A stretch of 40,180 nt of DNA, from NCBI GenBank assembly GCA_031267615.1, contig JAIRYM010000016.1, positions 1-40,180 of the forward strand, written 5' to 3'. The notes beneath the pieces are model-generated. The model searched no databases and had not been told where the DNA came from. It was given only the letters and a program-made list of their open reading frames with translations. Positions within the stretch are counted from its first letter, which is position 1; the number at the start of each line of letters is the position of its first letter. The DNA is from Dysgonamonadaceae bacterium. GTDB taxonomy: Bacteria > Bacteroidota > Bacteroidia > Bacteroidales > Azobacteroidaceae. Positions 12,254 to 40,180 of this stretch are shown piece after piece. The position numbers and the translations under genes are program-made.

Positions 12254-13723
12254 TTAAATACAGCATTGATACATTCCGGTACTGAGTTTTTCGTGCATCG
12301 CAGCTGCTGCTTTCCGTCCGTCGCCCATAGCAAGTATTACTGTAGCGCCGCCACGCACGATGTCACCGCCTGCAAAGACGTCCGGTAAATCGGTTTGCAA
12401 CGTTTTCTGATTGACGGTAACTGTTCCCCATTTACTGACTGAAAGTCCCTTAAAGGTGTTTGGGATAAGTGGATTCGGAGATACGCCGATTGCTACAATG
12501 ACTAAGTCTGCATCGACAGTTTCCGTTGCGCCTGGTATTTCAACCGGACGACGACGACCTGATGCGTCCGGTTCGCCAAGTTGCATCTTTTGTAATATCA
12601 TCTGTTTGACGTTCCCTTTTTCATCGCCGGTATATTTAACCGGATTATACAGATTCATGAAAATAACTCCTTCTTCTTTGGCGTGATGAATTTCTTCTAT
12701 TCGTGCAGGCATTTCTTCTTCCGAACGGCGATAGACGAGCATCGCTTTTTCGGCGCCAAGCCGGCGGGCTGTACGTACTGCGTCCATAGCTGTGTTGCCG
12801 CCGCCGATAATTGCAACGTTTTTACCGAAAAACACCGGCGTATCTGTTTCTGTCCGGTTTGCGCCCATAAGGTTGATGCGAGTCAAATATTCGTTTGCCG
12901 ACAATACGCCCGACAGGTTTTCGCCTTCAATATTCATAAAATTCGGCAACCCTGCGCCTGTGGCGATAAAAATGCCTGCAAAATCCTGTTCGTGCAGGTT
13001 TTCGTATGTTAAGGTTTTACCTACTATGCAGTTCGTAATAAACTTTACTCCTGTCTGACGCAAGTTTTCTATTTCTTTATCTACGATTTTGTTTGGAAGG
13101 CGAAATTCTGGAATACCGTATTTCAACACCCCGCCTATTTCGTGCAATGCTTCGAAAACAGTTATATCATAACCGCGATTAGCCATGTCGCCGGCAAATG
13201 AAAGACCTGCCGGACCGGAACCGGCAACTGCAATTTTCAAGCCGGCAGAGCTGTTTTTCGCAACATTTTTATCTGCGACTGCGCTGTCGGCTGCAAATCT
13301 TTCCAGATAGCCGATTGCGACTGGCTCAAGATTCATTTTATGGTAAATACATCGACTTTCGCACTGTTTTTCCTGTGGACAGACGCGACCGCAAACGGAG
13401 GGCAAGGCTGATGTTTCTTTCAGCACTCGCGCTGCTTCGTCAACATCGCCCCGTTCTATGTTTTTGATAAAGCCGGGAATGTCTATTTCTACAGGACAGC
13501 CTTCTATACAGGTTGGATTTATACAGTCAAGACAGCGTTTCGATTCTTGCAATGCCTGTTCTGCCGACAGGCCGCGGTTTACTTCTCCGTAACTTCTGCT
13601 GCGCTCTGCTGCATCCAGTTCCGGCATCTTAATTCGTGGAACAGCTGTTCTTTCTTTTGCTTTTATACTTTTGCGAAGTTCTTCGCGCCACGTCTCGTTG
13701 CGACGGTTATTTTCCAGGTTCAT
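12254..13723 (-). CDS. gltA: Glutamate synthase small-subunit-like NADPH oxidoreductase (GltA/NfnL type)
   Basis: The start is ATG 13723, giving MNLENNRRNETWREELRK and 489 residues. A longer open frame (to 14440) only exists because the upstream pseudogene is in the same frame. The N-terminal part carries iron-sulfur cysteine clusters (RCLDCINPTCIEGCPVEIDI and CGRVCPQEKQCESRCI). An FAD motif (VAGSGPAGLSFAG) and an NADPH motif (AIIGGGNTAMDAVRTARR) follow, then VFAGGDIVRGG near the end. Members act either as a stand-alone NADPH glutamate synthase or as the large subunit of NfnAB ferredoxin:NADP oxidoreductase. No NfnA-like partner is adjacent, so the role is undecided. A -7 element lies just upstream. 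Confidence 0.88.
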   Translation of the reverse strand: MNLENNRRNETWREELRKSIKAKERTAVPRIKMPELDAAERSRSYGEVNRGLSAEQALQESKRCLDCINPTCIEGCPVEIDIPGFIKNIERGDVDEAARVLKETSALPSVCGRVCPQEKQCESRCIYHKMNLEPVAIGYLERFAADSAVADKNVAKNSSAGLKIAVAGSGPAGLSFAGDMANRGYDITVFEALHEIGGVLKYGIPEFRLPNKIVDKEIENLRQTGVKFITNCIVGKTLTYENLHEQDFAGIFIATGAGLPNFMNIEGENLSGVLSANEYLTRINLMGANRTETDTPVFFGKNVAIIGGGNTAMDAVRTARRLGAEKAMLVYRRSEEEMPARIEEIHHAKEEGVIFMNLYNPVKYTGDEKGNVKQMILQKMQLGEPDASGRRRPVEIPGATETVDADLVIVAIGVSPNPLIPNTFKGLSVSKWGTVTVNQKTLQTDLPDVFAGGDIVRGGATVILAMGDGRKAAAAMHEKLSTGMYQCCI

Positions 13724-13743
13724 TCTTTTAGTGTTAGGATGTG

Positions 13744-13751
13744 CAAAGATA
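13744..13751 (-). promoter_or_regulatory. -7 promoter element of gltA
   Basis: The minus strand reads TATCTTTG, an exact TAnnTTTG, about 20 bases before the gltA ATG. No clear -33 TTG is seen. Its position supports the 13723 start and separate transcription from the pseudogene. Confidence 0.5.
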
Positions 13752-13924
13752 CGAAAATAACTTAGAATTGAGAATTGAAAATTGAAAATTAATGTTTTTT
13801 TTTTCTCTCCTTCTTTGGAAGGGACAGGGTATATATATATATTGTCTTCGTAAAACAAGTCTGCGGAGCGTCTGTCCCCACGGGGACAGAGGCAAAAACA
13901 GTCTGCAAACACTCTGTCCCACAG
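13752..13924. other. Repeat-rich junction between gltA and the SUMF1 pseudogene
   Basis: The stretch holds a run of AATTGA/AATTGAAA repeats (13766-13793), a T-rich tract, an AT dinucleotide run (13832-13841) and a palindrome with 9-base arms TCTGTCCCC / GGGGACAGA at 13871-13890. A related CTGTCCCACAG is at 13914-13924. The minus frame stays open through it by chance, joining the pseudogene to gltA, but the translation does not resemble either family. Confidence 0.6.
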
Positions 13925-15103
13925 GAACCCTTCTGTAGAATCATACCAGTTCCAGCACCATTCACAAAGATTACCGCTCATATCGTACAAACAACGCTCG
14001 TTGTAGTCTCTGGTTTTAACAGAGTGGGTACCGTAACCTGAATTACCGCTGATTTGATCTATATTTTCCCAATACCACGCAACGGTTCCAACAGTACTGC
14101 TGCCTGAGTATGTATAATTGTGCGTCTGGATACCGCCGCGCGCTGCATATTCCCACTCGCTCTCGGTGGGCAAACGATAACCATTGGCAGTAAAATTGCA
14201 GGTAGCGGCATCCCAACTGATATTACCGGTTGATGGTATGTCGGTGTAATCCAGATTTAGCCAGTCTACCTCATAGTTGTTTACATCTACGCTATAACAG
14301 GGCTCTTTACCCTCCATTATACTTAATTTATTACAATACGTTATAGCGTCATACCAGTTGATCATGTCCGCAGGTTTGGATGAGGACGGCGCGTAATTTG
14401 AATTAGTGCTGCACTGAAAACTCGAAGGGTTTATTCCCATTACATACTCAAACTGCGCCTAAGTAATTTCTGTTTCAGCCCACTGCAAAGTGGGAATAAC
14501 TGTGTTAGTATTGGTATTGCTGATGCCGTAGTTCCAACTGTTGCTGCCTGCTACGGGAAGCATCTTTGGCTTCAAAAACGAAGCAGGGTAATAATACTTT
14601 ACGCTTATATTGGTCTGTGATTCTGCAAAGATTATGCTATTGCTGCTCTGCTTGCCCTGAGAGACGGCATTTGATATACCCACAAAAAACTAATACTGCA
14701 CTGCATTAAGGTCAGGGGCGGTAAAGGTTTTGTAGCTGTTACTTGCTGTTATGCCGCAAGTAATCGCATTATCACTTAAAGCTACGGGCGGAATGGCAGG
14801 GGTGTTGTTGTAACAAATCTGTATCCACTCCACCCCATTCCACGTCTCAACACATTTAGTGTCAATATTGAAAATCTGCAAGCCCATAGCATCGGCAGTG
14901 GCTTTGGCGCCAAATGTTACCTGCATGTCGTTGCGCTCCTGTGTAGAAAGTTGCGGAAGACGCAAACCGCGTGTACCGCCGCCTTCTAACTCAAGTATGG
15001 AAAAACTTTCAGGATCCTTGAGATCACCAATTGTCACCTGCGCGAAGGCGCAGTTTGCGCTCAACATGATGAACGCGGTCATTGTTAAAAGAATTTGTTT
15101 CAT
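13925..15103 (-). pseudogene. Secreted SUMF1/FGE-sulfatase-fold protein, decayed
   Basis: One minus frame reads a signal peptide (MKQILLTMTAFIMLSANCAFAQ from ATG 15103), then a Bacteroidota surface-protein domain (FSILELEGGGTRGLRLPQLS, then KCVETWNGVEWIQIC). An Ig-like segment and a SUMF1 domain follow (PADMINWYDAITYCNKLS, GYRLPTESEWEYAARGG, MSGNLCEWCWNWYDSTEG). Two TAG codons interrupt it at 14690-14692 and 14459-14461. Both fall where related sequences suggest Gln (VQY-x-FFVG and EIT-x-AQFEYVMG). The homology stops at about 13925, before the RGGSW segment and C-terminal strands, so the 3' end is gone. A paralogue fragment lies at 39372. When intact it was probably an exported C-type-lectin-fold protein, not a true sulfatase-activating enzyme. 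Confidence 0.8.
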
Positions 15104-15667
15104 TGTTCTAAATAAATTTATATAGTGATTGTTTAATTCTAAGGAATAATTGCACTCTGTATTTCTGTCCAGGGACCTTTCTGACCGCGGGTGTTTTCCC
15201 AACGGCCGATCAGATAAGCGAAGATCATTATTGCCAGTTTGTGGCGTTTACTGTGCCCTGAGGGTATCCAATCCCTGTTATTCATAGGAATAAAAATTAA
15301 TTTGGTTATAAAATTTTCCTGTTTTGGTGTTATAATTTGTGTTTTGGGACGCCCTGAATTTAAAATCGGACGCCCTAAATTGGAAATAGGGCGACAAATT
15401 TTTAAAACTGTACGTACCAAATTTAAATTAAAAACGCCGAAAAAAGTTTTGGGAAAACCCGAAAAAAGTTTCATTTCACCGCAGCAAAAAGATAAACCGC
15501 CCGAAAAAATTTTCGGCATGTTTAATACAGAATTTATAAGTAGATTGTCGGTTACTGGTCTGAGGGGGGGTCGTGTGGTATAAACTGACACACTTTTTCA
15601 TGCGTCAATTGCGAATTTTTGAGGTAAAAATGTTCGTTTGCCATTTCCATTTTGTTATTAACGGCGA
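15104..15667. other. Non-coding leader/repeat region upstream of the pseudogene
   Basis: No convincing gene is present. Overlapping frames exist on both strands (plus 15239-15583, minus 15139-15591) but match nothing I recognise. Bases about 15347-15470 form a degenerate 21-base repeat, which in the plus frame gives seven-residue units GRPEFKI, GRPKLEI, GRQIFKT, VRTKFKL. A run of seven G (15564-15570) lies near the right end. A strong minus-strand promoter at 15668-15698 points into the region and may have been the pseudogene's promoter with a long leader. Confidence 0.5.
15552..15650 (-). CDS. Possible 32-residue peptide with a C7 tract
   Basis: A small frame starts at ATG 15650 (a second ATG at 15644), about 18 bases after a full consensus promoter. 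It reads MEMANEHFYLKNSQLTHEKV and on to a stop at 15552. A tract of seven C lies in the codons for HDPPSD. One extra C would shift it into the next frame, which is open to 15139. I do not recognise the peptide. It could equally be the remnant 5' end of a decayed gene. Confidence 0.25.
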   Translation of the reverse strand: MEMANEHFYLKNSQLTHEKVCQFIPHDPPSDQ

Positions 15668-15698
15668 CAAAGGTAAAACAATTTTTTAAAACGGCAAA
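15668..15698 (-). promoter_or_regulatory. Consensus minus-strand promoter
   Basis: TTTG (15698-15695), 19 bases, TACCTTTG (15675-15668) on the minus strand is a full match to the Bacteroidota promoter. It points at the small frame at 15650 and, further on, the SUMF1 pseudogene. Confidence 0.6.
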
Positions 15699-15784
15699 TT
15701 TTTTTATGAAAATAATTTTGCATAAAAGGTCGATATGCTAATTAGCGGCATTTATTCCGCAGGAGAGAGCGTAGAAGCAATGCA

Positions 15785-39318: not shown

Positions 39319-39338
39319 TTCATCACATAGCGCACCAC

Positions 39339-39357
39339 AAGTCCGATCGACCGACTT
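39339..39357. repeat. Short inverted repeat downstream of the candidate variable region
   Basis: AAGTC (39339-39343) and GACTT (39353-39357) flank CGATCGACC. On the minus strand it begins 15 bases after the TAG at 39372. Some retroelement variable regions have a small hairpin just downstream, but this one is short and could be a weak terminator between convergent genes. Confidence 0.3.
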
Positions 39358-39371
39358 ATAATTTTATGCCC

Positions 39372-40067
39372 CTACCTACACACAACCCGAAACCCATAGC
39401 GGCCGTACCGGTTATACGGGTAGCTGGAGTTCCGGTACGAAACGAGGCAGTAGTCAGCGTCATACTCCCAGCTGCCGCCGCGAATAACGCGGTAGTTAGA
39501 AGAGTAACCTGTAGAGACTACAGCATCCCCTGTCGGAGTGCTAAACGGAGTGCCACTGCTGCTGCCGTCAAAGGTAGCATCCCCCTTGTTCCAACACCAC
39601 TCACAAACGTTGCCTGACATGTCAAAGAGACCAAGATCGTTGGCGCCTAAGGTGCCAACAGGGCGGGTACTGTATTTGTTATCAACATATGAATTATCCC
39701 AGTACCACGCTACGTCGCCAATGGTAACACTGCCGGAATATTCCCATTCGCGCACATTTGTACCGCCACGCGCTGCATACTCCCACTCCCATTCAGTGGG
39801 CAAACGGTAGCCGTCGGCTGTGAAATCGCAGGTGACTGCGTCCCATTTGGCGTCAGTGGTTGATGGTATATCTGTTGTATATTTAAGTTCTAACCAGTTG
39901 CTAACACTGGAAACAGTATAAACAGGGCCCTTGCCTTCCATAGCGCTTAACTTGTTGCAGTACGCTATCGCGTCATACCAGCTGATCATATCAGCAGGTT
40001 TGGCTGATGAGGGTGCGGATAAATCAATTTGGGTATCAGTAGTATTATTGCAACTAAAGTAATTAAT
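39372..40067 (-). pseudogene. SUMF1/FGE-fold (C-type-lectin-like) protein, N-terminally truncated, with candidate variable C-terminus
   Basis: The minus frame opens at 40067 after a TGA and runs to TAG 39372; the first ATG is at 39989, inside the conserved domain. The domain is nearly complete from YFSCNN onward: PADMISWYDAIAYCNKLSAM, GYRLPTEWEWEYAARGG, LGLFDMSGNVCEWCW, NYRVIRGGSW and the end GFRVVCR. The signal peptide and N-terminal domains seen in its paralogue at 13925-15103 are missing. The end of another gene's frame lies only 9 bases beyond the TGA, suggesting truncation by a mobile element. Nothing suggests sulfatase activation. The fold is used by ligand-binding proteins and by retroelement targets. 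It could still be expressed from ATG 39989 (205 residues). Confidence 0.75.
39390..39482 (-). other. Candidate diversity-generating-retroelement variable region (VR)
   Basis: From the Arg before GGSW to the Phe of GFRVV, the variable-looking residues E-Y-D-A-D-Y-C-L-V-S-Y-R-N-S-S-Y-P-Y-N-R-Y-G-R-Y are set between fixed G, W, C, R, P and F. Fifteen codons (TAT, GAC, GAC, TAC, TAC, AAC, TCC, AGC, TAC, TAT, AAC, TAC, GGC, CGC, TAT) all end in C or T and all derive from AAC or AAT by changing only the adenines. That is the signature of adenine-specific mutagenic retrohoming, and the SUMF1/C-type-lectin C-terminus is the usual target. No reverse transcriptase or template repeat is in the window. 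Confidence 0.55.
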
Positions 40068-40075
40068 TCAAGTTG

Positions 40076-40180
40076 CTATTTATCTACGTTATATAATTTA
40101 TCAAAAGTATATCCCCAAATGAAAGCAATCAACTTAATAAGGAAACCATTTTCAGTAACCGCATGAATTGTTTTAGGCAA
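40076..40180 (-). CDS. C-terminal end of a gene cut by the window edge, possibly a transposase
   Basis: A minus frame is open from the window edge to TAG at 40076-40078 and reads LPKTIHAVTENGFLIKLIAF then IWGYTFDKLYNVDK. It has no internal start, so it is the 3' end of a longer gene. The amphipathic, aromatic-rich tail resembles the C-terminal helix of some DDE transposases, but I cannot assign a family. Its position right beside the truncated SUMF1 frame fits an insertion sequence having cut that gene. Confidence 0.5.
   Translation of the reverse strand: MPKTIHAVTENGFLIKLIAFIWGYTFDKLYNVDK

Follow-up and report, generated by a model that had tools for sequence, protein, structure and literature searches.

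The diversity-generating retroelement (DGR) of BPP-1 has one target, in cis, and the TvpA DGR of Treponema denticola was reportedly described by Le Coq and Ghosh in 2011. In BPP-1, the reverse transcriptase (RT) adjoins the template, mutagenesis is directed to template adenines, and the system is described with Avd and with a defined IMH and stem-loop (PMC12875486). The T. denticola DGR is reported to consist of one template repeat (TR) and RT, together with an HRDC accessory gene that lies between the TR and the RT and overlaps the RT, and to have up to seven dispersed targets of the formylglycine-generating enzyme (FGE) type (PMC4891356). According to the same report, complete systems have 2–7 target genes, lipoprotein signals are found on 62% of the targets, and some isolates carry truncated or heavily mutated targets or targets without an RT (PMC4891356).

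Distant targets have been described in other groups as well. In cyanobacteria, 76 remote targets in 21 genomes were assigned at >50% TR identity, and the variable proteins are described as mostly predicted cytosolic, many of them kinase-linked (PMC7517822). For Thiohalocapsa PB-PSB1, the account gives 15 targets with 21 variable repeats (VRs) in nine loci and four classes, with links to conflict systems; trans activity was inferred there from VRs without any non-adenine mismatch to a distant TR, and diversification was observed in natural populations (PMC10907252). The multi-VR DGRs of a 2012 survey had two to four VRs, with more at a distance (PMC3521204). According to a 2019 survey, a single TR may have a dozen VR copies or even hundreds, but the leading example given is atypical: A-to-N changes are few, and all 21 of its VRs lie in one adhesin gene (PMC6642488). 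A large metagenome survey notes that its own method would miss remote targets (PMC8144416).

Among nine open-library papers with the DGR term and “termite,” none was titled on a DGR in termite-gut bacteria. The genus considered here presumably lives in termite guts. The window, that is, the whole stretch of DNA that was analysed, is 40,180 nucleotides long and comes from a draft genome (G000) of 2.13 Mb in 128 contigs that is 87.6% complete. We are confident that window positions 39491-39381 are a VR of a trans-acting DGR made up of a template, an RT, and an HRDC gene, with putative homing into seventeen or more loci.

The window's variable stretch and its template

The gene carrying the signature is read on the minus strand, and its stop codon lies at 39374-39372. 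Six bases separate this stop codon from the VR core (39381..39491, minus strand), and a wider template-like stretch covers 39375..39501 (minus strand; the limits are approximate and were set by eye). The core is homologous to a template repeat elsewhere in the genome, on contig C20 (G000:C20:735-845), a run of AAC and AAT codons in a framework common to the window. The initial annotation, made from the window alone, had claimed the adenine signature of a DGR at this gene end, and the comparison with the template confirms it: the two differ at 19 of 111 positions, and 15 of the 19 mismatches fall on the 31 template adenines, leaving four non-adenine changes across the full 111 bases. When 19 mismatches were placed at random, 15 or more fell on adenines in 0 of 200,000 trials. 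In a local alignment without the last base, the window VR by itself gives 15/31 adenine mismatches against 3/79 others (Fisher p = 1.2e-7).

The same annotation had counted 15 adenine-derived NNY codons. The adenine-directed NNY pattern stands, since 12 of the 14 template AAY codons are altered in the window VR and 13 of the 14 are NNY there, but the count is somewhat high. An altered AAC codon at 39467-39465 reads GAG, which requires a C-to-G change in addition; the CTC at 39446-39444 is NNY but lies over template CGC and is thus a non-adenine change; and two TAT codons are also TAT in the template. These corrections aside, the variable stretch between GGSW and GFRVV is as it was described. 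The two-step changes TCC, GGC, and CGC all stand over template AAC codons, and, as had been said of AAY codons in DGR templates, adenine-only changes turn none of the template's codons into a stop. Almost certainly, the window stretch is a DGR VR that came from the template on C20.

An RVT_1 profile search of the genome found two RTs, at C20:1254-1838 and C58:3254-3826. On C20, an HRDC-domain ORF (C20:179-712; PF00570, E 6.7e-9) is followed by the template and then by the RT ORF (C20:1044-2030; RVT_1, E 1.9e-19), and the RT and HRDC frames are both open. The suggestion of a remote VR with an RT elsewhere was therefore a good one, as a near-copy template adjoins a DGR-type RT on another contig of the genome. 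This RT matches phrog_1423 “Reverse transcriptase” (E 1.9e-95) and has the motifs IGNLTSQ and YMDD, which we take to mark DGR-type RTs. It also resembles, at 37% identity, a plasmid RT annotated beside a DGR Avd gene. The NCBIfam group II, Drt, AbiA, and retron models all fell below cut-off for it, and the top PADLOC models were for generic RTs and defence RTs; the best 25 of 68 included none for DGRs. None of the libraries used gave a hit that is named as a DGR RT. Contig C20 starts within the last 25 bases of one more (18th) VR, which is outside the 17-locus counts given below, and the gene at the cassette's own cis position is cut by this contig start.

The spacer between template and RT (L050, 846-1043) is conserved in patches in three genomes; the spacers of G000, G007, and G044 have a mean column identity of 72%. 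It is possibly a structured RNA that primes cDNA synthesis. A candidate structure from RNAalifold (35 pairs, nine two-sided changes) was rejected, its covariation term being only -0.66 with three sequences.

Two other loci in the genome recall parts of the cassette. At L051 (G000:C42, 92-488), a VR equal to the template at 80/80 non-adenine core sites is followed by a remnant of an HRDC gene, and we read this locus as a partial duplicate of the cassette. The second RT (L052, G000:C58, 2760-4039) is 34-35% identical to the first, adjoins an AAC-rich ORF, and has a phage head gene (phrog_29) nearby. In the draft genome, the AAC-rich neighbour has no second copy at E <= 0.01. The C58 locus is possibly a second, prophage DGR.

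Seventeen loci and one template

A DNA search of the genome with window 39340-39560 as the query (E <= 10) gave 24 matches including the window, 18 of them with E <= 2e-8. With the TR core as the query, 18 places were found at E <= 1e-5, namely, the template and 17 VRs, which lie at 17 loci on 17 contigs, the window included. These were compared with the 111-base template core and its 31 adenines. Paralogues that differ equally at non-adenine positions had been named as evidence against a DGR; instead, the 17 VRs pooled have mismatches in 270/525 adenine cells versus 83/1351 others (odds ratio 16, p 2e-102). The adenine excess is seen in each of the 17 at p < 0.05 and is weakest in C8 (11/29 v 11/78, p 0.013) and C112 (16/31 v 18/80, p 0.005). 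Template A has been changed to G in 129 cases, to T in 97, and to C in 44. Three FGE paralogues outside the VR set, aligned to the template as controls, each have between a quarter and two fifths of their non-adenine sites mismatched to it. Two of them showed no adenine excess, with 13/30 v 32/80 (C11, p 0.83) and 12/30 v 16/63 (C109b, p 0.23), and the third had a nominal adenine excess (C83, 16/29 v 24/74, p 0.044). Aligned but left out of the counts were C114b and C117b, which have no VR, and the chance matches C43, C106, C98, and C83b.

The VRs range from clean to heavily mutated. Non-adenine mismatches are entirely missing from four of the 17 (C84, C99, C41, and C42; 79-80 sites each) and many in C112 (18/80), C8 (11/78), C30 (10/80), and C37 (10/79). 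Since several VRs rich in such changes look retired, the figure of 17 takes in former targets along with present ones. The range within one genome may allow the dropout of each target to be dated. Target orientation relative to replication is reported to influence homing (PMC12875486). A relation between VR strand and replication was tried here and dropped: over 17 contig stretches, the VR strand agrees with GC skew in 8 and with the coding majority in 9. Three of the four clean VRs agree by skew, versus one of the four with ten or more non-adenine changes, which is too few to weigh.

Variable ends could also arise by ordinary gene conversion among paralogues combined with diversifying selection on surface residues, without a DGR, and the paralogues do match piecewise at 72-92% nucleotide identity, which suggests exchange. 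A codon comparison bears on this explanation. It covered 15 of the 17 targets, with up to the last 270 residues aligned; C42 and C37 were left out, their frames being only 72 and 60 residues. Protein identity is similar in the VR (53%) and upstream (57%). However, codons for the same residue are identical in 1608/1791 pairs (90%) in the VR versus 3290/5230 (63%) and 3280/5695 (58%) in the two upstream halves, and codons for different residues agree in the third base in 1393/1690 pairs (82%) versus 3712/9140 (41%), although these pairs are not independent observations because the genes are related. Selection on residues would neither spare third bases nor track template adenines, and the differences fall on the adenines of a non-coding template that adjoins an RT. 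Conversion and selection without a DGR are thus scarcely credible. The agreement of third bases in the VR suggests that one template has been overwriting genes with diverged flanks. Repeated copying from one template predicts a common framework in which first and second bases vary; duplication followed by selection does not. The overwriting is visible as a sharp step of synonymous-site identity at the VR, and the genome is a clear natural example of many unlinked genes that match one DGR template. Template, RT, accessory gene, adenine-directed mismatches, and VR homogenisation across diverged genes can all be read from the sequences.

Downstream, the template and the VRs have GGGTTTCGGGTTGT in common (changed in one or two of them) and for the most part diverge after it, a pattern such as IMH and IMH* would give. 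The bases 3' of GGGTTGT are unlike those of the template in 15 of the 17 VRs; they are alike in C42 and partly alike in C116. The 3' ends are of the TGCAGGTAG and TCCCGCCAG types, plus that of the window. The last bases of the window VR, TGTAGG, are like those of most other VRs and unlike the template's TCCCGCCAG. When perfect stems of 5-12 bp were sought in the 110 bases after each VR, 10 of the 17 had one, some of them terminator-like, and no uniform stem-loop was common to the 17 over this distance. In eight of the 17, the VR is followed by a similar stretch around ATTATAAGTCGGT, recognised by eye (window 39330-39371, C109a, C71, C99, C60, C87, C41, and C112); C71 and C99 are one base off in this stretch, and both also have the palindrome GGTCGATCGACC. 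Another flank, different and terminator-like, is common to C84 and C114a (by eye).

Target proteins, apparently retired copies, and relatives

The window holds the 3' part of a TvpA/FGE-like target gene (39372..40065, minus strand; a 231-codon frame between stops). Its product matches PF03781 (FGE-sulfatase fold) with E 3.5e-34. Matched as it is by PF03781 and by the GldK model, this protein might be taken for a working formylglycine-generating enzyme or a GldK/PorK-like structural protein with a C-terminus that happens to vary. The GldK match, however, reaches 71.7 bits against a cut-off of 350. For the paralogue on C99, T. denticola TvpA (2y3c) is the best solved relative by sequence, with E 6.8e-40 in an alignment that runs through the VR; the best FGE enzyme is far behind (E 4.1e-17). 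The enzyme or structural role is very improbable. The targets would probably be secreted ligand-binding proteins with a C-type-lectin/FGE fold, forming a repertoire that is kept diverse. A simple pattern finds a Sec-like signal in 11 of the 17 targets and, in 3 of these 11, a Cys in the signal stretch. The six targets without a signal are four that reach the start of their contig, C37 with its frame of 60 residues, and the interrupted gene of the window.

The window protein covers only positions 87-254 of the PF03781 profile, and a simple pattern search found no N-terminal secretion signal in it. Homology to the paralogues ends at about 40065, and the end of a repeated element, recognised from its copies and translation (40055..40180, minus strand), breaks into the target gene and continues past the contig end. 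Five more copies of the element were found, four of them 94-98% identical to it and the fifth 77%. One of its frames, judged by eye, presumably resembles a transposase C-terminus; Pfam gave no family in 62 residues of one copy. Because of the four non-adenine changes and the element that cuts off the 5' part, the window copy is probably a relic, a past target, so that the alternative of a relic, also raised at the outset, fits this copy too. Interrupted and without a signal, the gene is taken as a past target that no longer makes a full protein, and it is likely that the copy is dead as a protein.

The window contains a second member of the family, frame-broken and without a VR (13934..15141, minus strand), whose open frame continues into an oxidoreductase gene (12254-14440), presumably gltD. 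Nearby, a repeat of about 245 bases (15461-15705) is 86-89% identical to stretches on C8, C87, and C99 (172 bases in the case of C99), and these three contigs also bear target genes.

The state of the window copy is one of the points in favour of frozen VRs, that is, of an old rewriting by a cassette that is now silent, with duplication and selection explaining the present state. Others are that non-adenine changes are common, with four or more in 8 of the 17 VRs (nine if the window's full core is counted), and that a genus-mate, G018, has 35 FGE matches and VR-like C-termini with no RVT_1 match in a 74%-complete genome. On the other side, the RT and HRDC frames are still open, and four VRs equal the template at all 79-80 non-adenine sites, whereas upstream same-residue codons agree in about 60% of pairs. 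Frozen VRs are unlikely. The clean VRs and the open genes make it fairly likely that the system still acts on some of the 17 loci.

The C20 RT was found in 6 of the 45 genomes of the family, G000 included (E <= 1e-40), the matches in G010 and G024 being 34-35% identical. The remaining three, G007, G008, and G044, have compact cassettes in which a cis VR gene is followed by an HRDC ORF and an RT, each with its own TR; the template lies before the RT in G007 and G044 and after it in G008. With its own template, G007 gives 14/29 v 0/78 for the cis VR and nine further loci with an adenine excess (p 3.5e-8 to 0.019), with one short match left unaligned. The templates of G008 and G044 find only their cis VRs (15/31 v 0/77 and 13/31 v 3/81, respectively). 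The C-terminal part of the G000 HRDC protein departs from three aligned relatives. An alignment-based RT scan of genome contigs gave 335 records, and the best 80 of these, which were kept, are mostly from Bacteroidota drafts, with some from other phyla. An HRDC-like ORF lies beside the RT in 79 of these best 80 loci; the exception, L163, is cut 10 bases before the RT. An earlier scan of genome contigs with a single RT gave no match, and an exact pattern scan of viral contigs for the VR framework gave 0 matches.

Across 38 genomes of the genus, the number of FGE matches runs from 0 to 35, with 1-4 in 29 of the 38 and the largest counts in G018 (35), G007 (28), G000 (23), G001 (15), G036 (13), and G008 (10). 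This unevenness means that large families are present in some species and absent in others. A pattern search of 22 loci of G018 (L105-L126) gave 10 VR-like C-termini. Eight of these, of equal length and compared by eye, have mostly NNC or NNT at their variable codons, and two of the eight depart widely. Neither an RVT_1 match nor a template was found in this genome of 1.4 Mb, so either the RT is missing from the draft or the family was orphaned by the loss of the RT.

Proposed mechanism and known systems

A transcript of the C20 template would be copied by the adjacent RT, with the HRDC-domain protein as an accessory. The resulting cDNA would be random opposite template adenines and would replace the matching C-terminal stretch of scattered TvpA-like genes, in trans. 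Reverse transcription, trans homing, and the continued working of the system are what we infer from the patterns described above. We are strongly confident that the window stretch was rewritten in trans; its VR would have been rewritten in the past by the C20 DGR, and it is now probably a dead target. There is perhaps an even chance that a broader picture is correct, in which a single template is the broadcast source that keeps rewriting seventeen or more scattered secreted receptor genes of this small Bacteroidota genome, probably that of a gut symbiont. The framework of the family would then evolve in concert and its binding sites independently, and different species of the genus would have assembled such families separately, each around its own template.

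BPP-1, as it is described, is similar in having the RT beside the template and mutagenesis at adenines, and differs in that the G000 system has an HRDC accessory and many targets. The targets are scattered over the genome as in the reported cyanobacterial DGRs, but those of G000 look secreted. As in the account of Thiohalocapsa PB-PSB1, there are VRs that show no non-adenine mismatch to a distant TR; unlike its nine loci and four classes, G000 has 17 loci and one template. The closest likeness is to T. denticola. In G000, one set of TR, RT, and HRDC gene matches several dispersed FGE-like targets, and the system described for T. denticola likewise has FGE/C-type-lectin targets with a VR, one TR and RT for several dispersed genes, and an HRDC gene, and its truncated or heavily mutated targets and its isolates without an RT are further points of likeness. 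In contrast to that description, G000 has 17 VR loci, the order HRDC-TR-RT, and Sec-like signals in 11 targets. With TvpA nearest to the C99 target, and with the HRDC gene and dispersed FGE targets of T. denticola, the G000 system belongs to a known kind, the TvpA-type multi-target DGR. It is the number of targets that is unusual: seventeen separate genes is high among the target numbers in the papers cited above, although no record is claimed.
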